A DNA stretch of 64,000 nt from Dehalogenimonas sp. WBC-2 (GTDB lineage: Bacteria; Chloroflexota; Dehalococcoidia; Dehalococcoidales; Dehalococcoidaceae), in contig CP011392.1 of the NCBI GenBank assembly GCA_001005265.1, forward strand, positions 1,547,902-1,611,901, given 5' to 3'. Every line of letters starts with the position of its first letter. Position 1 is the first letter of the stretch. The translations under genes were made by a program, and so were the position numbers. Shown piece by piece: positions 53 through 34,578 of the stretch. The notes beneath the pieces are model-generated. The model was not told where the DNA came from. It saw only the letters and a list, made by a program, of their open reading frames with translations, and searched no databases.

Positions 53-1918
53 CTAAGTATCTTGTGTGTCATCACGTCTGGCTCTCGGGATTGAAAAACG
101 CCGGAGTAACAAAAACCCCGTGCCTGCCAAAAATAGCGGGGCAATAGCCCCGATGAAAAAGAAGAACGGGGACGGCAGCGAGGTCCATATCGACCATATG
201 ATAAAAGACCGGGGCGTAGATGCAATACTGGCATTTCCCGCCCCATCGGTAGCCGACACTCTCCAAAAATAAGGCCTACCATTTGCTGGCAACTTCTCAA
301 ATACATCCATAACACAGGTTGGCGTATCGATTAATCTTTTTTCAATCAGAATGGAGGAAAAGGTTGGATCCTGTGATATTTGCAGCGTGTAAATCACCCC
401 GGACGGGTCAGATAAGGCTTGCCATTCAAAAACAACCGGCTGTTTAATAGCCGTACCATCCAAAGGGGCAATAAGTACGGGTACCAGTGGCGGGGTGCAT
501 TCCATGTAATAGGGAAACGTCCGAGTATTTACACCATCTGAAACTGTTATCACATGAACCCCTGCAGTTGAAGACCGCGCTTTAAACTTGATTGTGAACG
601 CGCCGGTGTTGCTCGCCGTAGCCGACCCTACTGACGTCGCATCATATTTGGCAGTGACCGTTGCTCCGGGATTGAATCCCTTACCTTCAACGATGATTTC
701 CTGTCCAACATAGCCGGGCAAAGTTACATCGGTAATCAGATTGATAGTAGCAGTCAGCGTCGAGGTAAAATAAGCAACCGATGAATTAGTGCCATCAGAG
801 GCTATTACCGCGTGATTGCCCTCAAGAGCACCAGGCACGGTAAAGGTGGCGCTGAAAGTGCCATTCGCTGCAGAGGTTATCACTGCCGGAGTGGTGGTAA
901 CTGCCTTGTCATCATAAGTAATTTGTATCAACTGAACTCCATTAAATCCGCTGCCTTTGATCGTAATAACCGTACCGGCAGTACCTGATACCGGCGTCAT
1001 CCTGATACTTGTACCCAGGATGAATGAAACTGCGGCAGAAGTATTTCTTGCGCTGTCAGAGGCTACTATATTATGGTAACCCCTTGAAAGCGCCGGAATG
1101 GTAATGCTGGTTGAGAAACATCCATCGGATAATACTGCGGCATTAAAGCCAGTTAAATTGACATTATCAATTTTAAAAGTGACGATACTGCCCGCTGCAA
1201 AACCGGCACCGGTAACCAACAGTTGGTCGCCTTCACTAAAGATTTTTATCGTATCCAGCGTTTCCGGTAGCGCAATACTCGACGTGACCGTGAAATTGGC
1301 AGGCGCCGAGGTGTTCCTTTTATCTGAAGCGACTATCGAATAGGCCCCCTGAGGATACTTGGGTACTGTTATATAACTGTTAAGACCACCGGATGCAGTA
1401 GAAATGAGTGAAGTAGTGTTGATGGGAGATGGGTTAATGCTACCGGGTGAACTGCCATAGGTGGCATTGTAGAAGAACAATTCCACAGACTCATTTGGCA
1501 AAAAACCGGCACCGCTAACGGAAAACATGTCACCCGGCCTTCCGCTTGAGGCTGTGATAAAGATCTGCGGCATGATATTCAATAGAGCGCTACTACTCTC
1601 ATGGGTCAGACTGCTGCTTATCTGGACGCTATGTTCACCGCCAGCAGCATCAGGTGGAATGATGATACTGGAAGAGAACTTTCCATTACTGGACACCAGT
1701 GTGTAATAAGTACCGATACCAGTGATACTGATGGAAATCATGTTGGGATTTGCCGATTGGTAATCCGCCGTGCCGGAAACAGTGATGGTATCTCCCGGGA
1801 AAGCTGAACCCGGCAGATTAAAGGTAAGCGTTGCGGCGCTTAAATAGGAAAAGGGCAACAACCAAAAAAGTCCTAATATGATTAGGATTCGGATAATCCA
1901 ACGGTTTGTGTTAGACAT
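53..1918 (-). CDS. Secreted, membrane-anchored TIG/IPT-repeat surface protein
   Basis: The 621-residue product starts with a hydrophobic signal segment (about residues 8-28, ending near SYLSAA). At least five immunoglobulin-like repeats of about 85-95 residues follow, each carrying a G-D-x-(I/F)-x-V-x-G-x-G-F type signature as in TIG/IPT and related adhesive folds. A proline-rich fibronectin-like module lies near residues 480-580. A C-terminal transmembrane helix with an arginine-rich cytoplasmic tail ends the protein, so it is probably displayed on the cell surface and anchored at its C terminus. It lies downstream of, and on the same strand as, the NarL-type regulator at 2025-2675 and next to the archaellum locus, so a role in surface attachment is plausible. 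No catalytic motif was seen. The fold call is good; the biological role is unknown. Confidence 0.8.
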   Translation of the reverse strand: MSNTNRWIIRILIILGLFWLLPFSYLSAATLTFNLPGSAFPGDTITVSGTADYQSANPNMISISITGIGTYYTLVSSNGKFSSSIIIPPDAAGGEHSVQISSSLTHESSSALLNIMPQIFITASSGRPGDMFSVSGAGFLPNESVELFFYNATYGSSPGSINPSPINTTSLISTASGGLNSYITVPKYPQGAYSIVASDKRNTSAPANFTVTSSIALPETLDTIKIFSEGDQLLVTGAGFAAGSIVTFKIDNVNLTGFNAAVLSDGCFSTSITIPALSRGYHNIVASDSARNTSAAVSFILGTSIRMTPVSGTAGTVITIKGSGFNGVQLIQITYDDKAVTTTPAVITSAANGTFSATFTVPGALEGNHAVIASDGTNSSVAYFTSTLTATINLITDVTLPGYVGQEIIVEGKGFNPGATVTAKYDATSVGSATASNTGAFTIKFKARSSTAGVHVITVSDGVNTRTFPYYMECTPPLVPVLIAPLDGTAIKQPVVFEWQALSDPSGVIYTLQISQDPTFSSILIEKRLIDTPTCVMDVFEKLPANGRPYFWRVSATDGAGNASIASTPRSFIIWSIWTSLPSPFFFFIGAIAPLFLAGTGFLLLRRFSIPRARRDDTQDT

Positions 1919-2024
1919 TTTATATCTTTTGGCTATCCGTTATTTCACTTTCAAAGGCTAAATATATTTGCGTCGCCGCTTGGACGAGTGTGTATTGAAA
2001 CTGGACAATTGATTTGGTCTATCG

Positions 2025-2675
2025 TTAGATTATCCCTCTCTGAACCGCCTTTGAAACAGCCTGAGCGCGGTCTTTAGCTTGAAGAATTTGAAGAATCTGC
2101 CGAATCTCACGTTTGGCGGTGGATTGGCTGGTAAAAATCATGGTGGCGATTTGCTTGCTGTTATAACCTTCAGAAATCAATCGCAGTACTTCTAGATGGC
2201 GCCCAGTCAGGCCGCCATCTTTTTTCTGCCCCATGAGCAACGCCGGGAAATCCGATATGATACGTTTAATAAGGACAGGAGAGACCGGATAATAACCGTT
2301 ATTGGCTTGATGTACCGCCTCAATAATGGACTCCGAGTCGCTTTCCTTTAATATAAAGCCGGAGGCCCCGGCTTCAAACGCCTCCTGGACATGATCGTCA
2401 GCAAACAGACTAAGCATTACCACTTTAGCGCTTGGAAATTGGCTCACTATTTGTCTGGTTGCAGCAATGCCGTCCATCCCCGGCATACGGATATCCATGG
2501 TGATAACGTCAGGAAAGAGGGTGCCCGCCATGGTTATTGCCTGGGAGCCATTTCCGGCTTCACCGACCACTTCAATAGACCGGTCGCTGACAAGGATGCG
2601 TTTTAAACCTTCGCGGGCGATCTGATGATCATCCACAAGGAGAACGCGGCAGCACCTATTGGTGTTTACTGTCAT
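2025..2675 (-). CDS. NarL/LuxR-family response regulator (copy 1)
   Basis: The 216-residue protein has an N-terminal receiver domain with the acidic pair D15-D16, phospho-acceptor D61 (in TMDIRMPG) and conserved K110. A LuxR-type helix-turn-helix spans about residues 152-205. The recognition helix reads STAKREIRQI, where most family members have a TVKxH-type sequence. The regulator at 12650-13312 has the closely similar STQKREMREI. The gene is transcribed away from the archaellum operon and has no kinase next to it, so the kinase at 13333-14595 on the other flank is the nearest candidate partner. Control of the archaellum genes is an inference from position only. Confidence 0.9.
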   Translation of the reverse strand: MTVNTNRCCRVLLVDDHQIAREGLKRILVSDRSIEVVGEAGNGSQAITMAGTLFPDVITMDIRMPGMDGIAATRQIVSQFPSAKVVMLSLFADDHVQEAFEAGASGFILKESDSESIIEAVHQANNGYYPVSPVLIKRIISDFPALLMGQKKDGGLTGRHLEVLRLISEGYNSKQIATMIFTSQSTAKREIRQILQILQAKDRAQAVSKAVQRGII

Positions 2676-3166
2676 CTTTTATGCTCTCATACCAAACAAA
2701 TATGAGTGTCATTTTATAGTAAACGTAAGACTCTGCTAAGGCCCAAAGGGTCACTATTGTTGACCTAAAAGGCCTATTTCCAAGAACAAAGGGCTACGGG
2801 CGCAAATATCCCTTGGATTACGCCTACCGGAAGCTGCGGGACATCGGGAAAGCACTACACGCACTTTCCAGCCGCAATTCTGCCGCCCATAAATAGTGAG
2901 TCATTAGGCTCATATCTATGAGTCGATTATCTTTCCAAATTTAGACCTTTGTGCCTACATCGTTGTCAGTGTTTGTGACAAAATTAGCCCAAAGCTGTTG
3001 GGCGATAGGAAGGGGTCAATGAGGAATGGCACAGTTTAATCACCGGTGGTATGACCCCATAGTTCGTCCGTAGAAAGCAGTATCAGGAGGTGACAGGCAT
3101 GTAATGAGGTCTGCATTGGTTTTCAAGTGGTCAATCAATTTTAGATAAAAAACAAAAGGAGCTGAT
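2676..3166. other. Intergenic region upstream of the archaellin gene
   Basis: This 490-base gap separates the divergent regulator and archaellin genes and must hold both promoters. I found no convincing sigma-70 promoter with good spacing. A weak TTGGTT (3116-3121) precedes an A/T-rich stretch near 3140. The archaellin Shine-Dalgarno AGGAG sits just before 3167. Part of the gap (2729-2896) reads as an open frame without a start codon. Confidence 0.4.
2729..2896 (+). pseudogene. Possible 3' remnant of an unidentified gene
   Basis: After a TAA at 2726-2728, a frame stays open for 55 codons to a TAG at 2894-2896. It has no ATG, GTG or TTG start that fits. The predicted peptide is basic and protein-like (YGRKYPLDYAYRKLRDIGKA), which suggests the tail of a lost gene, perhaps from a mobile element. 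I cannot name a family. The call is weak because an open run of this length can occur by chance. Confidence 0.2.
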
Positions 3167-3751
3167 ATGTTCTCAAAATTAAATGCGTTAACCACAAAAA
3201 TCTTTCGTGGCAAAAAAGGCATTACCGGCCTTGAGACAGCCATCATCCTGATCGCCTTTGTCACTGTTGCGGCGGTTCTTGCCTACACCGTACTGTCCGC
3301 CGGCATCTTCTCCTCCGAGCGCGGCAAGGAAGCCGTATACAGCGGCCTTGAGTCCGCACAATCTACCATGACGGTCAAAGGCTCGGTCCTTATTGTCGAC
3401 AATGCAGACCTTCAGTTTAATCTGGCCATGGCTGTCACCGGCGGAAGCGTGGACCTAAACAAGATGGTTGTAAATTACTTTGATAGTAACGGCGCCAATG
3501 AAAACGGGGCGACTGCACCAACTGTGGTGTTCACTGATTCTGACGGGGTTGAAGTGACTGCATTGACCGGCAATGAAACCGTCACCGTCACTGTCACTGC
3601 CGCCGGTTTATTAGATCTTGCCTCGTACGACACTTTCACCGTTGAGATAATCCCGCCCACCGGTGCCACTCTCACCATCAAGCGAACTATTCCCCCCCTG
3701 GATGGCGATACTGTAGCTGACGCCACTGCCACTTTAATCAACTTGAACTAA
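3167..3751 (+). CDS. arlB: Archaellin (archaellum filament subunit)
   Basis: The 194-residue product has the hallmarks of an archaellin. A short basic leader ends in RGKKG (residues 14-18) before ITGLETAIILIAFVTVAAVL. This is a class III (type IV prepilin-like) signal, expected to be cut after G18 by a prepilin peptidase, followed by the hydrophobic helix that packs the filament core. The rest is a Thr/Val-rich beta domain, as in archaellin outer domains. AGGAG precedes the ATG at good spacing. It is the first gene of the locus and the only archaellin in the window. A perfect hairpin follows the stop codon, consistent with more archaellin transcript than downstream transcript. No signal peptidase gene is present in the window. 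Confidence 0.92.
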   Translation: MFSKLNALTTKIFRGKKGITGLETAIILIAFVTVAAVLAYTVLSAGIFSSERGKEAVYSGLESAQSTMTVKGSVLIVDNADLQFNLAMAVTGGSVDLNKMVVNYFDSNGANENGATAPTVVFTDSDGVEVTALTGNETVTVTVTAAGLLDLASYDTFTVEIIPPTGATLTIKRTIPPLDGDTVADATATLINLN

Positions 3752-3780
3752 AGACCTCCAATCTGTGAACTATTGAGGAG

Positions 3781-3815
3781 AACAGAGCCCTCGAGGAATC
3801 CTCGAGGGCTCTGTT
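3781..3815 (+). terminator. Perfect 16-bp hairpin between archaellin and the motor genes
   Basis: Bases 3781-3796 are perfectly complementary to 3800-3815, with a 3-base loop (AAT). Only a short TTT (3814-3816) follows, so this is either a leaky terminator or a processing and stability element. Position after the most highly needed subunit, and before the next Shine-Dalgarno (GAGGAG at 3824-3829), suggests it sets the ratio of archaellin to motor proteins. Confidence 0.75.
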
Positions 3816-3836
3816 TAGAACCCGAGGAGAATGTCA

Positions 3837-4667
3837 ATGGATGTAAATACCAGGGTAACCCAGCTTGAAGATGAAATAAAAGTGCTTAAAAATGAAGTCC
3901 TGGCTGTGCTGTTGGACATGAAAGAAAGTCTGCTGAATGCTGAAAATCCGTTCTCCAAACCAGCGGCAAGAGAGATGCCAACGATTAATTTCACCCAATC
4001 TGCCCCGTCCACCTCACCCAGTCATGGTGATCATTTTTCCGGTAACGGCAATAACAATGGCAATAATCTAAGCCGGAATAACGGAAACGGGCATATCGGC
4101 CATGAGGCTGAAGAAAAAACACTGAAGTCCGTAGACAATGAACCAAAACCACAGCACAAAGAGGAACAAAGACCAGCACTGGAAGAGCCTCATGTAACAC
4201 CCAGAGAAACTAAAGAACCCAATAATACACTGCATGACATTCCATCACCCAATGGCTTTATTACCGAAGACACGTTCAGGTCATGGCCGTCAAGCATGAA
4301 AGTTCAGGGTGCCACGCAGACCGCGGCACCGGAAGCTGAGAACGGCGCTGATTTGGTATCACTAGACAGTCTTTCCTCTTTGATAGGCTGGGTTCAGACA
4401 ACCTCGATGAGAATGGGAGTCGAGAGAACACAGACGATACTTGATATATCAGACATGATGGGACAGATACCATCAAAGCTTAAAATAGTCCTGGAAAATT
4501 TCATACCGGCCCCTACAAATTGCGCGGTGCCGGATAAGATACCGGCCAAAATATACCTTGATTCATTGAAAGAACTTGCCAGATTACTCAACAAAAATAA
4601 TACTTCTGATTTCGTTGTGCTTCATATCGTTTCTCATGGCTTGAGTTCTATCACGCGGACCGGTTAG
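3837..4667 (+). CDS. ArlD/E-like archaellum accessory protein with N-terminal coiled coil
   Basis: The protein is about 276 residues. A coiled coil (first about 35 residues, in ArlC style) is followed by a long Asn/Gly/Pro/Glu-rich disordered linker (about 40-165). The C-terminal domain (about 170-275) contains a SLSSLIGWVQ...MGVERTQTILDISDMMGQIP pattern. This resembles the FlaD/E domain of archaeal ArlC, ArlD and ArlE, which link the motor to the switch or chemotaxis machinery. The upstream ATG at 3831 is only one base from GAGGAG, so the ATG at 3837, with about 7 bases of spacing, is the better start. Its place between archaellin and the ArlF/G-like genes matches archaeal gene order. Sequence divergence makes the exact subunit name uncertain. 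Confidence 0.7.
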   Translation: MDVNTRVTQLEDEIKVLKNEVLAVLLDMKESLLNAENPFSKPAAREMPTINFTQSAPSTSPSHGDHFSGNGNNNGNNLSRNNGNGHIGHEAEEKTLKSVDNEPKPQHKEEQRPALEEPHVTPRETKEPNNTLHDIPSPNGFITEDTFRSWPSSMKVQGATQTAAPEAENGADLVSLDSLSSLIGWVQTTSMRMGVERTQTILDISDMMGQIPSKLKIVLENFIPAPTNCAVPDKIPAKIYLDSLKELARLLNKNNTSDFVVLHIVSHGLSSITRTG

Positions 4668-4669
4668 CC

Positions 4670-5137
4670 ATGGATAAAGCAATTGTAACCGTGCTGCTCA
4701 TTATTTGTGGAGTTACGGCTACGCTGGCAATTTTCAACGGCGTCTATCCGGCGCTGACCCAAAGTCAAAGTGCCATCAGTTCCGCGGCGGATCAGGCTAA
4801 CGACAGGATGCAAAGCCGGATCACTATTATCCAGGCTGGGAGTTCCGGCAGCGAGGTAAATCTATGGGTGAAAAATGTAGGTCTTACCACTATCTACAAT
4901 ATCGGCCAAAGCGACCTCTTTTTGGAAAGTTCCGTCTCATACACCCGCATCCCTTACTCTGAGACAGACATTCCTTCCTGGTCATATATAATCTCGGACG
5001 GACAAAGCGATTGGTCACAGACAGTCACCATCGGGATTACGATCAGGCTCACTTCACCGCTGGCCACCGGTAATTATCAGGTAAAAATGGTGCTGCCTAA
5101 TGGTGTAAGTGATGCAATCATGTTTGGTGTGAACTAA
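4670..5137 (+). CDS. ArlG/ArlF-like archaellum stator protein (first)
   Basis: The 155-residue protein has a single N-terminal transmembrane helix (about residues 4-25) and a beta-rich external domain. The domain includes LWVKNVGLTTIYNI, which is reminiscent of the (V)KNTG motif of ArlF and ArlG, the stator proteins that bind the S-layer and pseudoperiplasm. It starts two bases after the stop of the preceding gene, with no clear Shine-Dalgarno, so translation is probably coupled. The C-terminal PNGVSDAIMFGVN resembles the end of ArlG. I favour ArlG, but the two small stator families are hard to separate by eye. Confidence 0.7.
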   Translation: MDKAIVTVLLIICGVTATLAIFNGVYPALTQSQSAISSAADQANDRMQSRITIIQAGSSGSEVNLWVKNVGLTTIYNIGQSDLFLESSVSYTRIPYSETDIPSWSYIISDGQSDWSQTVTIGITIRLTSPLATGNYQVKMVLPNGVSDAIMFGVN

Positions 5138-5141
5138 GATA

Positions 5142-5648
5142 ATGGAAACGATATTTGTCTCACTCATAGCGATTGTAATGGTGGTACTGAGCACGATATT
5201 TATGGTCACCACTTCCATGAATTCGGCGGAAAAGATCAGTGATTCCTTGAAAAACCTGGACACACAGTCCACCAGTATCCAATTGACCGCTATTGACGCT
5301 AACTTCATCGGTGTGCAGGAACAACTGATACAAATATCGGTAGCCAATATCGGTCAAAGAGATATGACCGATCTGACGCAATGGGACGTGATGTTACAAC
5401 GACAGGATGGCGGTATCACCCGGCTCTCCCTATCTCCAGCCCCTGACCCGGGTGCCAATCAGTGGGCGATAGAACACATCTATATTCCAAATGGCACCCT
5501 GGAAATATTCGATCCAGGCATCCTTAACCCGGATGAATATATGATAATTCTAATAAACGCAGGAATGGCACCCGGCAACGGAGAGGTGTTTAAAATCACC
5601 GTGGCCACCAGTAATGGAATAACCAGCCAGTGTCTGGCAATCGGGTGA
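5142..5648 (+). CDS. ArlF/ArlG-like archaellum stator protein (second)
   Basis: This 168-residue protein repeats the architecture of its upstream neighbour: an N-terminal transmembrane helix (about 5-26), then a beta-sandwich-like external domain with IQISVANIGQRDM and a later LNPDEYMIILI segment. Archaellar ArlF proteins carry a comparable glycine- and acid-rich turn (PGE/PDE) near the end of the domain. The gap to the upstream gene is four bases. With the previous gene it would form the ArlF-ArlG stator pair outside the membrane. Family membership is supported by position and architecture; exact identity is inferred. Confidence 0.7.
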   Translation: METIFVSLIAIVMVVLSTIFMVTTSMNSAEKISDSLKNLDTQSTSIQLTAIDANFIGVQEQLIQISVANIGQRDMTDLTQWDVMLQRQDGGITRLSLSPAPDPGANQWAIEHIYIPNGTLEIFDPGILNPDEYMIILINAGMAPGNGEVFKITVATSNGITSQCLAIG

Positions 5649-5673
5649 TCGGCCCAAACTGGGAGGTGCAACA

Positions 5674-6399
5674 ATGGTGATGTCAATGGACAATAAAGAG
5701 GAACAAGCCAAACGGATCATTTCTACCGGTCAATCGGAAATTAACAAGAAACTCGGTGGCGGTATTCCAGTAAATTCCCTGGTATTGATCGAAGGTCAAT
5801 CTGACGCCGGCAAATCGGTTCTATGCCAGCAAATGACCTGGGGCTCCCTCAACAGTGATTTCAAAGTGGTAATGTTTTCAACTGAGAACACTATCAAGAG
5901 CCTGGTCAGCCAAATGGACAGCCTTGGCCTGGATATCATGGGACACCTGTTGATGGGCGACCTGAAGATATATCCCATCAAGGCTTCCCAAATCAAAGCG
6001 GATTCGCATGAGGTTTTTGATCGTATTCTGGACACCATCGGCTTGCTGGATAAGTTTGAACTGTTCATTGTTGACTCACTGACGCCAGCTATCACTCAAT
6101 CCAGTGGCGACCGAGTCCTGCGATATTTTGAGCGGTGCAAAGAATTCTGTGATGAAGGGAAGACAATCATCAATGTTATTCATACCTACGCCTTTGAGCA
6201 GGATTTTTTGATCCGAACTCGTTCAGTTTGTGATGCCCATCTCAAACTGACCATTGAAAAAGTGGGTGACAAGCTGGTCAAGAGCATGGAAGTTGCCAAA
6301 ATACGTGGCGCCGCTCAGACTACCGGCAATGTGCTGGCCTTTGATGTAGAGCCACAAATCGGCATCAAGATAATGCCGATTTCCAGGGCAAAGGCGTAG
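5674..6399 (+). CDS. arlH: ArlH, RecA-like regulatory ATPase of the archaellum motor
   Basis: The 241-residue protein is a KaiC/RecA-fold ATPase with Walker A GQSDAGKS (residues 41-48) and Walker B FELFIVDS (about 128-135). Its length and motifs match archaeal ArlH, which binds ATP and docks on the ArlI hexamer to control assembly and rotation. GGAGGTG lies 5-6 bases before the ATG at 5674; further ATGs at 5680 and 5686 are possible starts. It sits directly upstream of the ArlI genes, as in archaea. No KaiC circadian partners are nearby, which favours the motor role. Confidence 0.9.
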   Translation: MVMSMDNKEEQAKRIISTGQSEINKKLGGGIPVNSLVLIEGQSDAGKSVLCQQMTWGSLNSDFKVVMFSTENTIKSLVSQMDSLGLDIMGHLLMGDLKIYPIKASQIKADSHEVFDRILDTIGLLDKFELFIVDSLTPAITQSSGDRVLRYFERCKEFCDEGKTIINVIHTYAFEQDFLIRTRSVCDAHLKLTIEKVGDKLVKSMEVAKIRGAAQTTGNVLAFDVEPQIGIKIMPISRAKA

Positions 6400-6421
6400 T
6401 GCATATGGAGGCAGTTGGGCG

Positions 6422-8158
6422 ATGACAACGACCATTATGCCGTTTGATTGGGAAACTGAGGTGCAATCGTCACGAAAATCACGTATCGAGGCATTGAATC
6501 AAAATATGCCCCCGGAGTTGTTTGAGGTAACCCAGGCTAATCCCCATCTCCTTGAGTATCTCAGTATGTTGCCTCTATCACAGATTGGTTTACCGGAATA
6601 CCATTCCGTACTTACAAAAGAACTAGGCGACCTAATGAATCCCAACGTTATTTATCCCATCAAGGATAATCTATTCGTTCACATTGTGGTTGATCAGAAG
6701 GACAGCCGAAATTGCTATATCCCTATTGAACCATCTTCTACATATGATGTAAGTTCCCTGTTGCAACGAGTGGAGGTAGCCTGTATTGATTACGGGCATG
6801 AACTGCCGGAATTTGACGATAACGGTGACCGGGTCAAACAATTACTACACTATATCGATCTGGTGACAACAGCCAGTAAAGTATCTATACCGGTTGGTGT
6901 TAAAGACAAATCGCTCTCTCCTTTGAAGAAGAAAAAACACTTGGAGAAGATCAGGGCGACACCCCGAGAAGCTGAAATTGTCAAGTATCTTTTCATCCGG
7001 GACAAGCTGGGGATGGGAGAACTGGAACCGCTGGCATGGGATCATTACATTGAAGATATTGGCTGCGCCGGTCTGGGGCCAATATTCATCGAGCATAAAA
7101 TATTTAAAAGCTTAAAGTGTTCCATAAACTTTACGGACATGGAAGACCTGGATAATTTTGTGCTCAGGTTAGCTGAAAAGATTCAGAAACCATTGTCTTT
7201 AAGCAGCCCTATTATAGATGCCACTTTGGAGAGCGGGTCACGTATCAATATTGTGTACGGCAGTGAAGTTTCCAAACGCGGTTCTAATTTTACTATCCGC
7301 CATTTTGAGAAAATCCCGATCTCCATTTTTGACCTGATCAATTTCGGTACAGTTAATTACCTGATTTTAGCCTATTTATCCATGGTCATCAGCAATGGCA
7401 TGAACCTTTTTGTTGCCGGTGAATCAGCTTCAGGTAAAACCAGCATGCTCAACGCTATCACTACTTTTATCCATCCGTTATCCAAGATTATAACCATTGA
7501 AGATACCCCGGAGCTGCAGGTGCCGCACGATAATTGGATTCGCGAAGTGGTACAGACTACCCGTGCCAACGATACCACCGGGGTCACGACTTTTGACCTC
7601 TTGAAAGCTGCCTTGCGCCAGCGTCCCAACGAAATACTGGTCGGTGAAATCAGAGGTCCGGAGGGTAATGTGGCCTTTCAGGCTATGCAAACCGGTCACT
7701 CGGTTATGACTACCTTCCACGCTTCGTCAGTGGAGAAATTGATTCAGCGTATTACTTCAAATCCGATTCTGGTGCCTAAGTCATACATTGACAATCTGAA
7801 TGTGGTAGTTCTGATGAATATGGTAAAACTGAGAAATGGCAAATATGCACGGCGTATTACCAGCATTGCCGAGATCGCCGGATATGATTCACTCAGCGAT
7901 TCATTTAATATTGTCGAAGTATTTCGCTGGGATGAAGTGACCGATAAGTTCAATTTCACCGGCCACATGAGCAGCTATATTCTTGAATATAAGATTGCCC
8001 CCAGGCTGGGTTTCTCCTCTACAAAAAAGACAAAAGTCTACGACGAGCTCAATAAAAGAGCCAATATCCTCGAAAAACTCCACAGGGATCAAAATATCAC
8101 AGGTTTCTACGAGATATTGTCGGTCCTTGGTAAAGCGCAACGCGAGGGACTCTTTTAG
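6422..8158 (+). CDS. arlI: ArlI archaellum motor ATPase, copy 1
   Basis: The 578-residue protein belongs to the secretion/archaellum ATPase superfamily. Visible motifs are Walker A GESASGKT (333-340), the Asp box TIEDTPEL (358-365), Walker B EILVGEIRG (404-412) and the His box GHSVMTTFHA (425-434). The N-terminal 300 residues form the ArlI-type N domain with a conserved nucleotide-proximal RIN motif near 274-276. ArlI hydrolyses ATP to power filament assembly and rotation at the cytoplasmic face of ArlJ. GGAGG lies about 10 bases before the ATG. A second full-length paralog follows immediately, which is unusual since archaeal loci normally have one arlI. Confidence 0.9.
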   Translation: MTTTIMPFDWETEVQSSRKSRIEALNQNMPPELFEVTQANPHLLEYLSMLPLSQIGLPEYHSVLTKELGDLMNPNVIYPIKDNLFVHIVVDQKDSRNCYIPIEPSSTYDVSSLLQRVEVACIDYGHELPEFDDNGDRVKQLLHYIDLVTTASKVSIPVGVKDKSLSPLKKKKHLEKIRATPREAEIVKYLFIRDKLGMGELEPLAWDHYIEDIGCAGLGPIFIEHKIFKSLKCSINFTDMEDLDNFVLRLAEKIQKPLSLSSPIIDATLESGSRINIVYGSEVSKRGSNFTIRHFEKIPISIFDLINFGTVNYLILAYLSMVISNGMNLFVAGESASGKTSMLNAITTFIHPLSKIITIEDTPELQVPHDNWIREVVQTTRANDTTGVTTFDLLKAALRQRPNEILVGEIRGPEGNVAFQAMQTGHSVMTTFHASSVEKLIQRITSNPILVPKSYIDNLNVVVLMNMVKLRNGKYARRITSIAEIAGYDSLSDSFNIVEVFRWDEVTDKFNFTGHMSSYILEYKIAPRLGFSSTKKTKVYDELNKRANILEKLHRDQNITGFYEILSVLGKAQREGLF

Positions 8159-8180
8159 ATGGATATTGCCGTTGCCTAGG

Positions 8181-9911
8181 ATGCTTATGCCCTTCGAAGG
8201 CATTGAACATCCGGCTTCTGGCCGGATGACTGAGACCGCACTCTTGAACGCAGTACCGGATGATTTCAGGGATGTCATCGGTAATAATCCCCACCTGTTG
8301 GAATATTTGCTCAGGCTACGTCTCGATGAGTTAGGAATACCTAAATACTTGAACAAAATATCACGCAATCTGGGGGATGATAAGAAACCAAATTATATCT
8401 ACCCGTCCAACGATGAAGGAGTATTTGTTCATATTCTTTTTAATACCACTGACAGCCGTCATAGTTATATCCCGATAGAACCCAGTTCAACCAGGGATTT
8501 TATGCCGTTAGTGAGATCGGTGGAGCATAAGTTGCTTGAATTAAGGAGCGAATTATCGAACGTTGTCACCAGCGATAACAGACAGGAACAACTGCTGGAA
8601 TGGATTTTCAGCGTTACAACCAGCCCTGGGCGGCAGGAGTTACCCAACAGAAACCCTGGTATCAGATCCCGGAGAAGAAAAGCCACGGGGTTTAAAAAAC
8701 TGGCTCTTACCAGGCAGGAAATGGATGGCTTGCGCTATCTTTACATGAGAGATAAATACGGCCTGGGAGCCTTGCAGCCTCTTATCGCCGACCCTAACAT
8801 CGAAGATATCAGTTGTTCGGGCTTAGGCCACGTTTTTATAGAGCATAAAGTGTTCAAGGCTTTAAAAAGCGCCCTCGTATTTGAAGATATTGATGACCTG
8901 GATCAGTTTGTCCTATGGCTGGCGGAACGTATTAAGAAGCCGATCACCTTCCGCAATCCCATTTCCGATGCCACTTTACCGGACGGTTCACGTATCAATA
9001 TGGTCTTTGGGAAGAACATCTCCAAGCGCGGCTCAAATTTCACGATACGTAAATTTGCCGGTGTGCCGACTTCCATATTTGAACTAGTAGACTTCGGCAG
9101 TATCAACTACCTGATGCTGGCTTATCTTTCACTGGCTATCGGTAATGGTATGAATGTATTTGTATCCGGAGAAACAGCCTCCGGTAAAACGACGTTATTG
9201 AACGCTGTAACCGCATTTATTCACCCGCTGGCCAAAGTAGTGACGATTGAAGATACCCCTGAATTACAGGTACCACACAAGAACTGGATACGCGAGGTAG
9301 TGCAGACTACAAAAACCGACGATAAAAGTAATGCTGTTAACATGTTTGACTTATTGAGAGCTGCGTTGCGGCAGAGGCCGAACCAAATAATAGTAGGTGA
9401 AATCCGCGGCCCGGAAGGTAATGTCGCTTTTCAGGCAATGCAGACCGGCCATGCCGTGATGGCTACCTTCCACGCCGCTTCAGTTGAAAAACTGATACAG
9501 CGGATTACCGGTAATCCAATTTCCGTGCCCAAAACCTATGTGGATAACCTTAATATTGTGCTATTGACCAGTATGGTCAAACTGCCAAACGGGAAAATGG
9601 GACGCCGTGTACTGGGCATCAATGAGATCGTGTCGTATGATTCTTCTTTTGACGCTTTCACATTCATTGAGGTTTTCCACTGGAATGAAATAAATGATAC
9701 CTTTGAATTCCCAGGCTATATGACCAGCGAAATTCTTGAAAACCGGATTGCCCCCAAATTCGGAGTCGCCAACCGCAACAAGCATTGGATCTATTCAGAG
9801 CTTAATCGCCGGGCAAAAATACTGGAAAAGTTGCATAAAGAACAGGGAATCACCGACTTTTATGCCATACTCGATGTGCTAAGCAAAGCGCAACGTGAGG
9901 GCTTATTCTGA
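8181..9911 (+). CDS. arlI2: ArlI archaellum motor ATPase, copy 2
   Basis: The open frame extends back into the first arlI, but the protein should start at ATG 8181 (or 8187), 22 bases after the first stop. That gives about 576 residues, aligning from the N terminus with copy 1. All catalytic motifs are intact: Walker A GETASGKT, TIEDTPEL, IIVGEIRG and GHAVMATFHA. The two proteins share long identical stretches in the ATPase core and nearly identical C termini ending KAQREGLF, but differ more in the N domain. Tandem duplication followed by divergence is the simplest reading. The stop overlaps the arlJ start by one base. Whether both form one mixed hexamer or two alternative motors is unknown. 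Confidence 0.88.
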   Translation: MLMPFEGIEHPASGRMTETALLNAVPDDFRDVIGNNPHLLEYLLRLRLDELGIPKYLNKISRNLGDDKKPNYIYPSNDEGVFVHILFNTTDSRHSYIPIEPSSTRDFMPLVRSVEHKLLELRSELSNVVTSDNRQEQLLEWIFSVTTSPGRQELPNRNPGIRSRRRKATGFKKLALTRQEMDGLRYLYMRDKYGLGALQPLIADPNIEDISCSGLGHVFIEHKVFKALKSALVFEDIDDLDQFVLWLAERIKKPITFRNPISDATLPDGSRINMVFGKNISKRGSNFTIRKFAGVPTSIFELVDFGSINYLMLAYLSLAIGNGMNVFVSGETASGKTTLLNAVTAFIHPLAKVVTIEDTPELQVPHKNWIREVVQTTKTDDKSNAVNMFDLLRAALRQRPNQIIVGEIRGPEGNVAFQAMQTGHAVMATFHAASVEKLIQRITGNPISVPKTYVDNLNIVLLTSMVKLPNGKMGRRVLGINEIVSYDSSFDAFTFIEVFHWNEINDTFEFPGYMTSEILENRIAPKFGVANRNKHWIYSELNRRAKILEKLHKEQGITDFYAILDVLSKAQREGLF

Positions 9912-11416
9912 TGGCTAAACAGGAAATAATCCAGAGCGGCGTTGAAAAAAGAAAAAAAAGCGGCAAATGGTCGCCTGACCTGCAAATGCTGCATTTTGAT
10001 TTTTTCTGTCATTTAACATACATGGCAGCGATTGCCACCTCAGGCATATCACGGAGTGGGCTATTCAATCACTCCGCAAAGATACCTCTTATTTCCGCAC
10101 ATTATTTTCAAAAGATCAACGTGGTCGCCCGTGCATTCAACCACGATTACGCGGAATCATGCCGTATTGTTGGAGAGGCGACCAAGGAACCGGACGTAAA
10201 AGCTCTCCTGCTTCGTCTTTCCGGAGCACTGGCGTCAGGGGAAGATATTGCCGCCTTTTTGGAAAAGGAAGCTGAAGTCGCCTCCGAGAAATATGGTGAC
10301 CGCTTTGAAGGCGCTATTGAATCATTGAAGAAATGGACCGACGCATATGTGGCGTTGATTATGACCTCAGCCATTGTTGCCGTCATGACCGTCATTACAA
10401 TGATTATCGGTTCAGGTAGTACCGTATATATCCTGGGATTCGGACTACTAACAGTACTTGTCACCCTTGCCGGAGTATGGTTGATTTACAGCGCCGCACC
10501 AAGAGAACCGAAAGTACATTCGCTTCCTATCCGCTCTCGGGAGCAGAATCTGGCGAATAGACTATTCCGGATATGTGTCCCTCTGGCTGTTGTGCTCTGT
10601 GCGGGTACCTATATATTGAATATGCCTTTAGGAATATCGGTTCTTGCAGCTGGGCTCAGTATATTTCCATTTGGATTGGTCAGCATGATCAATGATAGCA
10701 AAATAGATAAGTACGAAAGTGATATCGGTGGTTTCCTTCGCTCCTTGGGAGGCGTTACTCAGGCTACCAACATCACAGTGAACGAGGCTTTAACCCGGAT
10801 CGATTTCAGGTCAATGGTTTCACTGAAAGATAGCGCCACACTGCTTTACACCCGATTGCAGGCGGGTATCGAACCGAAACTATGCTGGGACCGGTTCGTC
10901 GCTGAAACAGGGTCAGAAATGGTTGCCCGTAGCGTGCGTATTTTTTTGGACAGCATCAGTATCGGTGGGGAAGCTGAGAGAGTTGGCCGCGATGCCGGGT
11001 TTTTCGCGCTAAAGATCGCGCTGCTGCGTATTAAAAGAAGCACAATCGCAACTGGTTTCACCTGGTTGGCTGGTATTATGCACATTGTCCTGGTAGTGCT
11101 GGTGCTGTTCATTTTCCAAACTATCGGTCAGTTTTCAGATATGGTGAGAGAGATACTTCCAGCCAATTCCAGCGTCCCAGGAGCACCAAGTTTCGGTATT
11201 TTTACACCGGATTCCGGACAGTTAGGCTTATTACAGTTCATGGTAATCGGAATATCATTGGTCCTGTCGGTGTCTAACGCCACTGCGGTTTATGCGACGG
11301 GCGGCGGCCACTATTATAAATTATTCTTTTATCTGGCAGTGACTTTAAGTATCACCGGAGCTGCACTATTGATTGTTCCTGTGGTCGTCGCTTTCATGTT
11401 CAATATGATGAATTGA
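9911..11416 (+). CDS. arlJ: ArlJ archaellum platform membrane protein
   Basis: The 501-residue polytopic protein has two T2SF/GspF-like halves separated by membrane clusters. Hydrophobic segments fall near 150-220, 225-260, 385-420 and 430-500. Cytoplasmic four-helix regions contain conserved charged residues such as the KYESDIGGFLRSLGG segment. ArlJ is the membrane platform on which ArlI and ArlH assemble and the filament is built. Its start overlaps the arlI2 stop as TGATG, so translation is coupled. Architecture and position after arlI match archaeal arlH-arlI-arlJ order. Confidence 0.88.
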   Translation: MAKQEIIQSGVEKRKKSGKWSPDLQMLHFDFFCHLTYMAAIATSGISRSGLFNHSAKIPLISAHYFQKINVVARAFNHDYAESCRIVGEATKEPDVKALLLRLSGALASGEDIAAFLEKEAEVASEKYGDRFEGAIESLKKWTDAYVALIMTSAIVAVMTVITMIIGSGSTVYILGFGLLTVLVTLAGVWLIYSAAPREPKVHSLPIRSREQNLANRLFRICVPLAVVLCAGTYILNMPLGISVLAAGLSIFPFGLVSMINDSKIDKYESDIGGFLRSLGGVTQATNITVNEALTRIDFRSMVSLKDSATLLYTRLQAGIEPKLCWDRFVAETGSEMVARSVRIFLDSISIGGEAERVGRDAGFFALKIALLRIKRSTIATGFTWLAGIMHIVLVVLVLFIFQTIGQFSDMVREILPANSSVPGAPSFGIFTPDSGQLGLLQFMVIGISLVLSVSNATAVYATGGGHYYKLFFYLAVTLSITGAALLIVPVVVAFMFNMMN

Positions 11417-11424
11417 GGGGTAAT

Positions 11425-12069
11425 ATGAACATCAGTAGCATAATGGCGGATCCCACTTCGGCGCTTATTGCCGGAATACTTTTCAGCCTTATCTTAATAT
11501 TAGTGGCCCTTATCGCTCTTTTATTGGTACGCCGGGCAAACAATAGGACCAGACAAACAGTATCAACATCCAGAATCAAAACTATTTCTGATTCCTCGCA
11601 AGTAAATATTTCGCGGCCAGTAGCGAAGAGGGAAAATAAAAATGGTATAGGCCTTGACAACGAACTAGGTGACTATATACAAGTCCGCAAACCTGCAAAA
11701 CCTGACACAATTCAAGCGGTGGCAATACCGGAAAAACCAGAAGCAGTGGTGGCGCAATCAATACCGGGGATGGAAAAAACGGCACCCGCTGAACTCAGGG
11801 TATCACCCAATTTAGTAACAGTGCAGAATAGTTCCGCTTCTCAATCCGAGGCAACGGTACTGGAGAGTGAGAATATACCAGAGCAAAAGGAAAAAAACGA
11901 TGATCCGTTTAGTGTGTTCAACGAAGTCACCATGGAACAATCCCCGACAAGTAAATTCGCAGCTACATTAAAAGATGTGGACATTCACGATCTCAACCGC
12001 CAGACCCAAGCCACCATGAAGATATTGAAGAGCAGAACAGGATGCCAGAAGGGAAACATTCCTCAATAA
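11425..12069 (+). CDS. Single-pass membrane protein at the end of the archaellum locus
   Basis: GAGGGG at 11415-11420 points to the ATG at 11425, giving about 214 residues; a TTG at 11413 would overlap the arlJ stop. One strong N-terminal transmembrane helix (about residues 13-36) ends in a basic RRANNRTRQ stop-transfer. A long, low-complexity, mostly cytoplasmic tail rich in Pro, Glu, Ala and Ser follows, with a more ordered C-terminal segment (KFAATLKDVDIHDLNRQTQA). I do not recognise a family. By position it is part of the archaellum operon. A motor-ring or scaffold role comparable to archaeal ArlX, for which no homolog is visible here, is a speculative possibility. Confidence 0.75.
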   Translation: MNISSIMADPTSALIAGILFSLILILVALIALLLVRRANNRTRQTVSTSRIKTISDSSQVNISRPVAKRENKNGIGLDNELGDYIQVRKPAKPDTIQAVAIPEKPEAVVAQSIPGMEKTAPAELRVSPNLVTVQNSSASQSEATVLESENIPEQKEKNDDPFSVFNEVTMEQSPTSKFAATLKDVDIHDLNRQTQATMKILKSRTGCQKGNIPQ

Positions 12070-12156: not shown

Positions 12157-12552
12157 TTACATCAATACACTCATATTCCAAAAAAGAACGCCATTATAAA
12201 ATAGTAACATGCTGAGCAAAATGATCATGCAGATACGTGGCAGGCGACGGTAAATCCACCACAGGACAGCGGAACTGATTATTAGACCGGCAATCTTTAA
12301 GGGTATAAAAAGGCCGGAACCGATCATATTTGATACAAATGGGTTTGACTCTTTGACCAGACCGACAGTAACCAGAGACTGGGTCATCAACGCGTCCACG
12401 GCTTGAACCAATATCAACAGTCCCAAGAGCAAGGCGAACTTACGGTCAAGGGAAACCGGCTTATGCCACAGCTCATCATACTCATTAAGATGGCGGAGTC
12501 CACCGGCCCACGGATGGGACTTTATATGTTGATTGACCCAAATAGACCACAT
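12157..12552 (-). CDS. DUF5658-like membrane protein
   Basis: The ATG at 12552 has AAGGGG at good spacing and gives about 131 residues; a TTG eight codons upstream is less likely. The protein has three predicted membrane segments. The first, LLLGLLILVQAVDALMTQSLV, is followed by a VKESNPFVSNMI loop. An acidic residue in the first helix and an E-x-NP motif after it are the pattern I associate with DUF5658 proteins. Function is unknown. It lies just downstream of the NarL regulator on the same strand and convergent with the archaellum operon. Confidence 0.65.
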   Translation of the reverse strand: MWSIWVNQHIKSHPWAGGLRHLNEYDELWHKPVSLDRKFALLLGLLILVQAVDALMTQSLVTVGLVKESNPFVSNMIGSGLFIPLKIAGLIISSAVLWWIYRRLPRICMIILLSMLLFYNGVLFWNMSVLM

Positions 12553-12649
12553 AAATGACCCCTTTGACCATTCCAAGATAGACCAAATGGGTCATCAAGT
12601 CAAACAATGTTGAGTATTGTGATTCCGGTAATGGCGGGGGGGGATATCA

Positions 12650-13312
12650 CTAGTCGTGGACTATTTTGATAATACCAGCTTTAATCGCGATCGAACACGC
12701 GTGTGCACGGCTGTTTACACCCAGCTTATTGTAAATTTCACGCATCTCCCTTTTCTGGGTTGACAAACTGATGCATAACTGGTGACAGATGGCTGTAATA
12801 GCAAAACCTTCGCATACAAGTTTCAGTATTTCTTTTTGCCGGTTCGTCAGAGCTAATGAGTTTTGTTTATGGAGTCTGTAATACTCGGTAAGCAATTTTT
12901 TATTTAAGGCCGGGGATACAGGATTGATTCCCTGATGTATCTGCTGTATCGCCTGGGCTATTTGGTGACTATCTCCATCCTTGAGCATGAACCCGCCTAT
13001 GCCAGCGTCAACACCTTCTGGAAGTAAATCATCTGCGTACATGGTAAGTGCCAGCACCGCCACATCTGGCAGTTTTTTTTTAATCTCTCGGGTAGCCTGT
13101 ATTCCATCCATTTGCGGCATATGCAGATCCATAACAATGACATCTGGTAATAGTGACAGGGCTTGTTTCACCGCCTCAAGTCCATTTTTTGCTTCACCGA
13201 CAACCTTAAAACCACCTTCGTTCTCTAAGACACGGCGCAAACCCTGCCTTACGACTTCATGGTCATCAACAAGCATCACTCTAATTGGCGTCTTAACAAC
13301 GCATTCAGACAT
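12650..13312 (-). CDS. NarL/LuxR-family response regulator (copy 2)
   Basis: The 220-residue protein has receiver acidic pair D16-D17, phospho-acceptor D62 (VMDLHMPQMDG) and K111, then a LuxR helix-turn-helix near 155-205. The recognition helix STQKREMREI closely matches that of the copy-1 regulator (STAKREIRQI) on the other side of the archaellum locus, so both may bind related sites. It lies about 20 bases downstream of the histidine kinase stop, so the two form a two-component pair. Targets are not evident from the sequence. Confidence 0.9.
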   Translation of the reverse strand: MSECVVKTPIRVMLVDDHEVVRQGLRRVLENEGGFKVVGEAKNGLEAVKQALSLLPDVIVMDLHMPQMDGIQATREIKKKLPDVAVLALTMYADDLLPEGVDAGIGGFMLKDGDSHQIAQAIQQIHQGINPVSPALNKKLLTEYYRLHKQNSLALTNRQKEILKLVCEGFAITAICHQLCISLSTQKREMREIYNKLGVNSRAHACSIAIKAGIIKIVHD

Positions 13313-13332: not shown

Positions 13333-14595
13333 TTACTTCTTCAGCCTTAATGATAGTTTAATTACTGTTCCAATACCTGGACTGCTGTTAACTACCAAAT
13401 CTGCCCCTATCAATCTGGCCCGGGTGAGCATCCCCTTCAAGCCATTTGTAAAAAGTGGTGGGGAGGGTTGTCCTACGCTGTTGTTAGAAAATCCCTTCCC
13501 ATTATCCATGATAGTCACATTCAACGAATCTGATTCGGATGCTATATCGACGGTAATGGAATCTGCCTGAGCATGTTTCCGGGCGTTGTTCAATGCTTCT
13601 TCAACTATCCAATAAATGGTTCTTTCCTCGGAATCAGTAAGAGGTGGTAATTGAGAACCCAGCGCAACCACACAATTAATGCCGTATCGATTGAATTCTT
13701 CAGCTTTGCTGTTTATCGCGCCAACCAAACCATATTTTGCCATCTCAACCGGTTTCAGATCTGCAATTGCTCGCCTGACCTCTTGTGTGCATTTCTGGAT
13801 AGTTTTTTTGGCCGAAGATAACGACTTCTTCAATTCCGGGATATTCCCAATGGCCGCCATGGCGCGGCATATATCGATATCATAAGCCACACCGAGCATC
13901 CATTGGGCCACACCATCATGAAGGTCAGCTGCAATACGCTGCCTCTCCTTTTCTCTACATTCAGCCAAATGTGCCATAATCTTTGGATCATCATGATGAT
14001 GGGTGTCCCCGTCTTCATTTCCGTGAATAGCATCCAACTTCATGTTACACCAATGACCTAGCAGGGAAGCTGCCGCCAACTCACTTTCCGCATATTCCGC
14101 GCCATCGTAGGCCCTTACTACCAGAATCCCACCCAAGATCTGTTTGCGTTTAACCAATGGAATACACATAAGATAATGAGTCTTATTACGTAATGTTAGT
14201 TTACTCAGGCAGGGCAGATACATGTCATCACGTTCAAACAGGCTTGTCAGCAGGCTAAGCATTATTTGTTGACAGTTTCGTTCAGACAACGAATCGAGTT
14301 CACCATATTTTGATTTAATAACCCAATCACTTGAATTACTCTCTCTTATGATACTTGATACGAAATCTGATTTTGTTAGGAAGGGCATCAATTCAACGGC
14401 TAGATTCAATACTGCATCTAGCCTAATATCATCACTGGATGAACTAGAAAAAGTCTCAAGTTTCTTATGCCATTTTCCCAGGTCGTCACTATGTCTGAGG
14501 TCAACTTCAGAGGCATGGGGCAAGATTGGGGAAGCCTTCAATAATGCGGCCGATGTTTTAGGCAGGTTGTCCGAATTATCTTCGCGTGATAGCAT
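13333..14595 (-). CDS. NarX-type (HisKA_3) sensor histidine kinase with GAF-like domain
   Basis: The 420-residue kinase has a GAF-like sensor region (about 57-192) and the HisKA_3 phosphoacceptor H226 in DLHDGVAQWMLG. An HATPase domain follows, with EEALNNARKHA, DNGKGFS and GLKGMLTRARLIGA. No transmembrane helix is present, so it is cytoplasmic. A small membrane protein ends six bases upstream of its start and may serve as its membrane partner. The cognate regulator follows about 20 bases downstream. The histidine run HHHDDP near residue 199 is unusual and could bind metal. Confidence 0.88.
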   Translation of the reverse strand: MLSREDNSDNLPKTSAALLKASPILPHASEVDLRHSDDLGKWHKKLETFSSSSSDDIRLDAVLNLAVELMPFLTKSDFVSSIIRESNSSDWVIKSKYGELDSLSERNCQQIMLSLLTSLFERDDMYLPCLSKLTLRNKTHYLMCIPLVKRKQILGGILVVRAYDGAEYAESELAAASLLGHWCNMKLDAIHGNEDGDTHHHDDPKIMAHLAECREKERQRIAADLHDGVAQWMLGVAYDIDICRAMAAIGNIPELKKSLSSAKKTIQKCTQEVRRAIADLKPVEMAKYGLVGAINSKAEEFNRYGINCVVALGSQLPPLTDSEERTIYWIVEEALNNARKHAQADSITVDIASESDSLNVTIMDNGKGFSNNSVGQPSPPLFTNGLKGMLTRARLIGADLVVNSSPGIGTVIKLSLRLKK

Positions 14596-25723: not shown

Positions 25724-26770
25724 ATGCTTGGCACTAGATCTGAAACAATACTCTCGAGTATCATCCGGCAGTACGTTGAAACCGCCGCACCGGTGTCATC
25801 GACAGCGGTTCTAGCTGAATGCGGTATTGATGTTTGTTCGGCCACGGTCAGAAACGAAATGGTGCGCCTGGAAGAAGAGGGTTATATTCTTAAGCCGCAC
25901 CACTCTGCTGGTAGTATCCCATCAGACAAAGGCTACCGGTACTATGTGGAGAGTATCAAGAATGCTCGGATGCCAGTTACTGACCAACTTCTTATCAACC
26001 ACCTGTTTCACCAGGTAGAAAAGGAAATGGAAAATTGGCTGTCGCTGGCAGCCGGTCTGGTATCCCAGCGGGTACACAATGTTGCCATCGTCACTCAGCC
26101 TAAACAGGTCAGCGCAAGATACCATCATCTGGAACTGGTGGTGTTGCAGGAAAGCCTGGCTTTGGCGGTGCTCATCATGCGCGGCGCGCGTGTTAGACAA
26201 CAACTGGTCAGTTTTGATGCTCCCGTTGGACAATTTGAACTCAACGGCATGTCTGGAAAGTTGAACGAAGCTTTTGACGGACAATCGCACACCGTTATTG
26301 AGAAAAGCAATCTGTTTCTCAATGAGAATGAGAAAAAAGTTCGCGACGCCGTGGTCAAAATGCTCCATGCCGAGGACCAGCAAACCAATGAGGAACCTTA
26401 CTTGGACGGCCTGAACTACCTGCTGGAACAGCCAGAATTCACCCGGAACCATCGCGCTCAGTCTCTTATGGAACTGGTGGAAAATCGGCGTTTGGGAAAG
26501 ATGCTGGGTGAGGCTGAATTTGAAGGCCAGGACATCAAGGTTTATATCGGCCAGGAGAATCGTGAGGAGACTATCCGAGATTACTCAGTAGTGCTCGGCA
26601 GCTATGGTTTGGCCGATGAGGCTCGCGGCACCCTTGGCGTCATCGGCCCGACACGGATGAATTATGAAAAGACTATCGCCGCAGTGCGCTACCTATCGCT
26701 GGTAATGAGCGCACTGGTCGCCGAATTGTACGGTCGGCAACCCGACTCTCAGACTGAAAACGAAACCTGA
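25724..26770 (+). CDS. hrcA: Heat-inducible transcription repressor HrcA
   Basis: The 348-residue protein has the N-terminal winged helix (about 1-80, with SSIIRQYVETAAPVSS and SATVRNEMVRLEEEGYI) and the GAF-like HrcA domain. Conserved PSDKGYRYYV follows the helix-turn-helix. It represses its own operon by binding the CIRCE element at 25684-25710 and loses activity on heat shock when chaperones are titrated. First gene of hrcA-grpE-dnaK. No strong Shine-Dalgarno is seen; AAAAAG precedes the ATG. Confidence 0.95.
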   Translation: MLGTRSETILSSIIRQYVETAAPVSSTAVLAECGIDVCSATVRNEMVRLEEEGYILKPHHSAGSIPSDKGYRYYVESIKNARMPVTDQLLINHLFHQVEKEMENWLSLAAGLVSQRVHNVAIVTQPKQVSARYHHLELVVLQESLALAVLIMRGARVRQQLVSFDAPVGQFELNGMSGKLNEAFDGQSHTVIEKSNLFLNENEKKVRDAVVKMLHAEDQQTNEEPYLDGLNYLLEQPEFTRNHRAQSLMELVENRRLGKMLGEAEFEGQDIKVYIGQENREETIRDYSVVLGSYGLADEARGTLGVIGPTRMNYEKTIAAVRYLSLVMSALVAELYGRQPDSQTENET

Positions 26771-33190: not shown

Positions 33191-34578
33191 TTACCACCAT
33201 CTACCATTCGTAGCATCGTATTTATTAGGGATTTCTCTATTCCACCAGTCCTCGTTGCTCAAGTTTCCATAGCCGAATGCATCGTCCATGTTCCTGAAGA
33301 ATCCACTGAATATGCCGGTAGCTGCTACAGTTCCTTTAATGATGTTATGAATATTTGCTTCATCAAACTTTGAAAATACACATACGCCTTGGCAGTTACC
33401 GCAAAGTCCTGCGTACCTCATATTTCTATACGGTAAACAGGTCTTCCAATCGGCATACCATGTCTTAACGCCACCGGCATTCCACGGACCGGTTGTCTCC
33501 CATGATGGTTCAGTCTCTAGGCTTATAGAGTTACTCGGGCAAAGTTCGGCACATTTTTTGCAGGTTTTACAAAAACGCATTGCCCCAAATTCAATTGGGC
33601 TTTCTGTTGGCACTGGTAAATCAGTTAGCACCATATTAGGTACGCGCCCAACCATCCCATAAACAGGATGGATCAATAAATTTGCCCTCCCAAGCTCTCC
33701 TTGACCACCTAGTACTGCAAAACCATTTACATGACCAGGATTGCTTCCCGCCCCTCCATACCCTAATGCTCTAAGAAAGGTCAGTACCCTTCCTTGCATA
33801 AAATTAAGCTCAGAGTACGCCTTCGCTACTGCCGCACCGCCAAGATAACCATCCCAACTTTCCCCTGTTTTGTTGGTAAACATATTCTGCACAACAAGGT
33901 AACTAATGACATATTTGTAGCTTTTTGGAATAACATACCGATCTTTCTCAACCGAAGGCACCTCAGCATCTTCGAAAACATATGGTTTCCCATTTGCTTC
34001 ATCATTGGCAAATATCATCTTGAGCCTGTTATCATCCAACTCTTGGAAACTCACATGTGCCGCACCAAAATAGTGGAAGGCGGCGCGAATCATCTTGGCG
34101 TTTTCTTCTGGACTGCCTTGATATTTGGGCAGTCCAGCTTCCTGTGGAGTGGAGAATGCACCCGGCAATATAACTCTAGGACTAGTTTTGGTATAAAAAT
34201 CGAAATAACTATACGCATCATGTATCCAACCATAGGATGACGCTAAAACTACTCCAAGATCTTTGAGCGTGGCTCCGTCTTTGTTGGATTGAACGCGTGT
34301 GATCATGTCCTGCCGTTGCTCAGCAGCCCATTGTGCAGCCAGCGTGGCATATCCGTTTCCTGGTTCTTTCGATGGGTTAAATTGTAAACGTTTGTCATAA
34401 CGTTTCATTGTTTGCCAATCAATTTCTGAAGTCGGCTTGTCTGTTTGTTTCACAAACCAAGGAAGCTTGTGGCCTTTGTTCCCTGCTGCTACAAGATCAT
34501 CTAAATCTTGAAAAGCTGGGGCAATCGCAGTGCCTTCATGAATGTTCTTCTACTTACCGTGGAATGGGTATCAGACAT
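33191..34578 (-). pseudogene. rdhA: Reductive dehalogenase RdhA with a frame-disrupting deletion in the Tat signal
   Basis: The uninterrupted frame (33191-34453, 420 residues) has the RdhA C-terminal ferredoxin part: FCKTCKKCAELCP for one [4Fe-4S] cluster, CGNCQGVC for the second, and the FFRNMDDAFGYG tail. It lacks a Tat signal. Upstream, an ATG at 34578 preceded by AAGGAT reads MSDTHSTVSRRTFMKAL, a canonical RdhA twin-arginine start, then goes out of frame and stops at TAG 34501-34503. In the other frame the expected continuation appears: IAPAFQDLDDLVAAGNKGHKLPWFVKQTDKP, joining the long frame. The glycine-rich hydrophobic core of the signal is missing and the loss is not a multiple of three. 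The full-length protein is therefore not made, and a shorter internal start would give an unexported enzyme. No rdhB is adjacent. Confidence 0.85.

Follow-up and report, generated by a model that had tools for sequence, protein, structure and literature searches.

The archaellum locus of the bacterium Dehalogenimonas sp. WBC-2 carries two adjacent, full-length genes for the motor ATPase ArlI. On the grounds of co-occurrence, conservation, and convergence, all read from sequence, we lean modestly toward the view that this arl2-type locus specifies a motor using two non-equivalent ArlI ATPases together. The locus spans positions 3167 to 12069 of the window, meaning the whole 64,000-nucleotide stretch of DNA analyzed, and comprises nine ORFs in the window's ORF list, all on the plus strand:

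3167..3751, plus strand: arlB, archaellin of 194 aa with a class III signal (KKG preceding ITGLE); Pfam Arch_flagellin, 76.3 bits (cut-off 29.5).
3831..4667, plus strand: arlCDE-like gene, cytoplasmic protein of 278 aa; profile match to the archaeal counterpart.
4670..5137, plus strand: arlG, stator of 155 aa; profile match to FlaG 5tug, E 3e-15.
5142..5648, plus strand: arlF, stator of 168 aa; profile match to FlaF 4p94, E 4e-13.
5674..6399, plus strand: arlH, KaiC-like regulator of 241 aa; NF004723 FlaH, 280 bits (cut-off 194).
6422..8158, plus strand: arlI-1, first motor ATPase, 578 aa; NF058587, 613.0 bits (cut-off 550); P-loop GESASGKTS.
8187..9911, plus strand: arlI-2, second motor ATPase, 574 aa; NF058587, 612.7 bits (cut-off 550); canonical P-loop GETASGKTT.
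9911..11416, plus strand: arlJ, membrane platform of 501 aa; NF004703 ArlJ, full length, E 8e-117.
11413..12069, plus strand: orfX, final gene of the locus; membrane segment at the N terminus, then a long linker and a conserved C-terminal motif.

We are nearly certain that these genes constitute an archaellum locus. The components are a class III archaellin, an ArlCDE-like protein, the ArlG and ArlF stators, ArlH, two ArlI proteins, and ArlJ, all encoded by intact ORFs with complete motifs. The original prediction of a complete archaellum-type locus on one strand is borne out in its named parts. It placed a single ArlI between ArlH and ArlJ, all three of which are indeed present, where there are in fact two full-length genes, and it overlooked both the tandem pair and the conserved orfX. 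The archaellin, already recognized there by its class III signal, also passes the archaellin N-terminal model TIGR02537 (24.2 bits; cut-off 20). The protein that had been called ArlD/E-like itself matches no Pfam model; a profile built from its family aligns with the same-position protein of archaeal loci (hhalign, 99.7%, E 1e-26). Two predicted ArlF/G-like stators, weak in single-sequence searches and clear by profile and fold, resolve into ArlG and ArlF. Specifically, the ArlG model (pLDDT 91) finds FlaG 5tuh as its top Foldseek match, and the ArlF model (pLDDT 90) matches FlaG and FlaF about equally. ArlH reaches 213.5 bits against NF052589 ArlH, 1.5 below the cut-off of 215, and ArlJ scores 390.7 bits against NF004703, below the curated cut-off of 570. 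Inspection of start codons identifies 8181 as a possible alternative to 8187 for arlI-2.

Misreading of a type IVa or Tad pilus as an archaellum is vanishingly improbable. The likeness of the two ATPases to pilus enzymes is of the superfamily level only: against the 613 bits to the archaellum motor model stand 54 bits for PilB (cut-off 676), 64-67 for PilT (319), and 136-146 for TadA (373), all far below their cut-offs. The original prediction had named grouping with PilB or PilT as what would count against it; instead, in a tree of ArlI proteins, both WBC-2 sequences branch with Chloroflexota and euryarchaeal ArlI. ArlH and the ArlF and ArlG stators are likewise archaellum parts. The sequence evidence thus refutes a pilus identity, the ATPases belonging to none of the PilB, PilT, or TadA families.

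Archaella in Chloroflexota have a history. An archaeal flagellar operon was noted in a Chloroflexi bin in 2013 (PMC3971608), and in 2025, 243 archaellated Chloroflexota genomes, Dehalococcoidales included, were published, with filaments and swimming demonstrated in Litorilinea aerophila (PMC12488501). Thus, the novelty first attached to an archaellum in a bacterium has mostly been anticipated, correct as the identification was. Similarly, ArlX is indeed missing and an ArlCDE-like protein stands in its place; this had been taken for a departure and is the stated norm for Chloroflexota archaella, which have the arl2 order, ArlCDE rather than ArlX, and a prepilin peptidase outside the locus (PMC12488501). 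WBC-2 shares all of these features along with a bacterial host, and its stator order, G before F, is of the arl2 type. Its locus is an arl2-type archaellum, and the transfer of this kind from archaea to Chloroflexota has been shown before. Unlike the published Chloroflexota systems, it has tandem ArlI genes, a single archaellin, and no CheW, and it is known here from its genes alone. With the euryarchaeal arl2 archaella of Archaeoglobus and Methanophagales it shares homologs of ArlB, ArlCDE, ArlG, ArlF, ArlH, ArlI, and ArlJ, whereas the archaeal loci examined carry one ArlI beside ArlH and lack the orfX motif.

ArlI is regarded as a single-copy protein. A census of archaea found one copy of FlaI (PMC4858521), and ArlIJ was chosen for use in the Chloroflexota study since it is single-copy (PMC12488501). 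By the archaeal yardstick of one ArlI per locus (PMC4858521), WBC-2, with two, stands apart; because each copy is an ArlI, we treat the locus as a variant of the archaellum and not as a non-member. The main texts of PMC12488501 and PMC13319060, to which our comparison was confined, make no mention of a double arlI, and the tandem full-length pair appears to be new.

The two WBC-2 genes lie on the same strand, 28 bases apart, and their products are 56% identical. Comparable pairs occur in a first group of nine sampled genomes (WBC-2, G040, G041, G042, G044, G048, G062, G110, and L092) and in a second case in another family, f155, represented by L110 (in G665, one chromosome-sized contig) and L117 (in G578). 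ArlJ and ArlH are each encoded once per tandem locus. Among the other arl loci examined, from Chloroflexota and archaea alike, nearly all have a single ArlI, next to ArlH. In one further instance, the Methanophagales contig L169, about 6 kb separates the arl locus from a second, distant ArlI-like ORF (1304-3160; 42% identity).

In a tree of 128 ArlI proteins, the 18 proteins of the first tandem group form one clade (support 100), within which first genes separate from second genes (82 and 92 SH-aLRT). The f155 pair is placed elsewhere and is of independent origin. When the tree was built more carefully, first and second copies still separated, with weak bootstrap (43/90); trees of half-proteins leave this separation unresolved. 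Three alignment columns tell the copies apart (C in first and L in second copies at 121, I or V and L at 122, I and F at 497), and at columns 121 and 497 the first-copy state is rare or absent in single ArlIs. Because of the separation of the copies, these diagnostic columns, and the conserved position, the sequences favor, without proving, one old duplication in the first group. The tandem pair is old and has been retained across several families. Other histories were considered and set aside. Open frames of about 1180 aa hinted at a fused ArlI-ArlI protein; the loci show separate ORFs. A very recent duplication is contradicted by the trees, in which same-genome copies are not sisters. Gene conversion in the ATPase half was assessed by comparing half-protein trees, whose resolution is weak.

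The catalytic residues of both copies are intact. Each retains the Walker A Lys and Thr, the IEDTPE box, GEIRG, TGH, and the Arg of the DGSR loop. Where it is measurable, in the trio G040, G041, and G042, dN/dS ranges from 0.14 to 0.30 in copy 1 and from 0.15 to 0.18 in copy 2, values indicative of purifying selection on both. Neither the catalytic motifs nor the dN/dS values support a reading of copy 1 as a decaying pseudogene. Copy 1 and copy 2 distances are correlated, both mutually and with those of ArlJ and ArlH (r 0.74-0.87). The copies are not equally conserved, however: at the 121 columns that are at least 97% conserved among 105 single-copy ArlIs, copy 1 shows 68 deviating cells versus 15 for copy 2. 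Across all polarized sites the asymmetry is mild and mostly not significant; it reaches significance in three genomes, and we therefore do not ascribe the difference to generally faster evolution of first copies.

The clearest difference lies in the P-loop. Residues 335 and 341 correspond in alignment to Sulfolobus FlaI T264 and T270, which neighbor the Walker lysine K268. Among single-copy ArlIs, position 341 is Thr in 105/105 and position 335 in 104/105, and none of the 105 has replaced both. By contrast with these singles, seven of nine first copies carry Ser or Ala at both positions, the other two (G048 and G110) keeping the canonical P-loop, and both f155 second copies have independently made the same double replacement. 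On the tree, the double change takes four steps, all in clades that account for 17.6% of tree length. A scan of 393 genomes of the class for GE[S/A]ASGKT[S/A] matched three, all of them with tandem ArlI (G578, G665, and G705, in which the bases matched belong to L092), and no genome with one ArlI. Serine codons of the AGY type escape the pattern, and WBC-2 itself therefore went unmatched.

Might the pair simply be redundant? A dosage duplication would make the copies interchangeable and the P-loop changes near-neutral drift allowed by redundancy. The substitutions are conservative, a T to S/A change may be mild in effect, both copies are canonical elsewhere, and the first copies of L048 and L050 have a canonical P-loop. 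Nevertheless, we give this explanation little credence, given long retention, the signs of purifying selection on both copies in the G040, G041, and G042 trio, and the joint replacement of one and the same pair of residues in each of two independent duplications, seen in none of 105 singles.

The notion we favor is that ArlI-1 and ArlI-2 would be produced jointly and would share one motor, working on its single ArlJ platform either within a mixed ring or in coordinated rings. ArlI-2 would serve as the canonical ATPase for assembly and torque; ArlI-1, with a retuned nucleotide site, would modulate the cycle. We put forward more tentatively, as something a little short of an even bet, the stronger form of this idea: a hetero-oligomeric archaellum motor whose ATPase subunits are two paralogs with distinct kinetics. 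Chloroflexota would have arrived at it at least twice, with the same P-loop change in one of the partners.

An analogy exists in the PilT and PilU proteins of type IVa pili (PMC6821130), two paralogous ATPases of the same superfamily that serve one filament machine. They belong to another family and act in pilus retraction, so the comparison is one of working principle only. It nonetheless frames an alternative, in which the two ArlIs form separate homohexamers, one assembling the filament and the other rotating it, or cooperate as PilT and PilU do. A motive for splitting roles is plain, since the sole ATPase of the archaellum, ArlI, must switch from assembly to rotation (reviewed in PMC12024892). 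The copies are less alike in their N-terminal parts (26-57% identity) than in their ATPase parts (65-77%), and both are catalytically intact. However, the genes are adjacent and probably co-translated, they share one ArlJ and one ArlH, and no differential regulation is visible. We consider such a division of labor unlikely.

All of this presumes that the locus is used, and its setting bears on that point. The WBC-2 genome is one contig of 1,725,728 bases, 99.75% complete, in which the window occupies bases 1547902-1611901, and mis-binning of the locus is accordingly very unlikely. The remainder of the window is bacterial, as had been stated, with the following landmarks:

25684: CIRCE-like site with 2 mismatches.
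25724-26770: HrcA.
27429-29351: DnaK.
33191-34453: RdhA.
56977-58335: Rho.
59674-61335: PyrG.

Neither Rfam matches nor tRNAs were found in the 64,000 nucleotides, and a promoter scan gave sites not above chance. The arl locus sits in a 21-kb variable stretch. Because the flanking genes adjoin, in inverted order, in the relative G036, gain in WBC-2 and loss elsewhere are both possible; a recent island insertion was not adopted, the G+C of the locus (46.3%, versus 49.3% for the window) giving no clear sign of it. No ArlI occurs in seven other genomes of Dehalogenimonas or in three of Dehalococcoides, and the WBC-2 genome contains no CheW domain. This absence, the patchy distribution, and the variable stretch could be taken to mean that the locus is a relic, acquired horizontally or left over, that makes no rotating archaellum. 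We judge that improbable: all ORFs are intact with complete motifs, a resident prepilin peptidase is present, and some other loci, tandem as well as single, also occur in genomes without CheW. CheW matches do share a contig with arl in G044, G062, and G110. Because the one Peptidase_A24 of the WBC-2 genome has counterparts in all seven Dehalogenimonas congeners without ArlI, the archaellin would likely be cleaved by this resident bacterial enzyme.

Genes on the minus strand adjoin the locus. Two LuxR-type response regulators and a histidine kinase flank it (2025-2675, 12650-13312, and 13333-14595), and similar response regulators lie near arl in L044, L046, L049, and L050; control of the archaellum by these proteins is possible in a genome without CheW. 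A DUF5658 membrane protein (12157-12576) has homologs near arl in L044, L046, L047, L048, and L049.

Other arl loci show peculiarities of their own. ArlF-like ORFs of L044 (10314-11921) and L046 (8604-10049) reach 535 and 481 aa, roughly triple the normal length, which suggests an extra domain on the stator. L053-L060, L062, and L063 have arlJ upstream of arlH-arlI, and most of them carry a second, longer ArlF-like ORF. Finally, L166 (QNDS01000161.1), a contig named Candidatus Fermentibacteria, has an arl locus whose ArlI falls within Methanosarcinales at very short distance; this closeness makes mis-binning likely, and we do not count it as an archaellum in a further phylum.

The last gene, orfX, recurs in this position in almost every Chloroflexota arl locus inspected, with homologs after arlJ in L044-L047, L049-L052, L092, L096, L099-L101, L106, L110, L114, and L118. 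A profile of its last 75 residues matches 62 of the 79 bacterial arl loci with room downstream, a count that is partly non-independent since 18 loci besides WBC-2 supplied the profile. The same profile matches none of 20 archaeal arl loci and no reversed ORFs. Where arlJ precedes arlH-arlI, the match lies about 3.7-3.9 kb past arlJ and so follows arlI. Of 56 distinct orfX proteins, only 18 have a clear N-terminal membrane segment, that of WBC-2 among them. The gene is not named in the text of PMC12488501 that we consulted and is seemingly unreported. That study suggested a bacterial fitting part as possible, the archaeal adaptor CheF being absent (PMC12488501). We propose that orfX links the archaellum motor to the bacterial cell.

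From the host side, orfX is thus a candidate for the bacterial part that fits an archaeal motor to its new cell. From the motor side, two copies of the ATPase offer a way to test whether building and spinning the filament must fall to a single enzyme, and a natural two-ArlI motor would let assembly and rotation be separated genetically and structurally. If our reading is true, a homomeric ATPase motor has gained a second type of subunit, and has done so twice.
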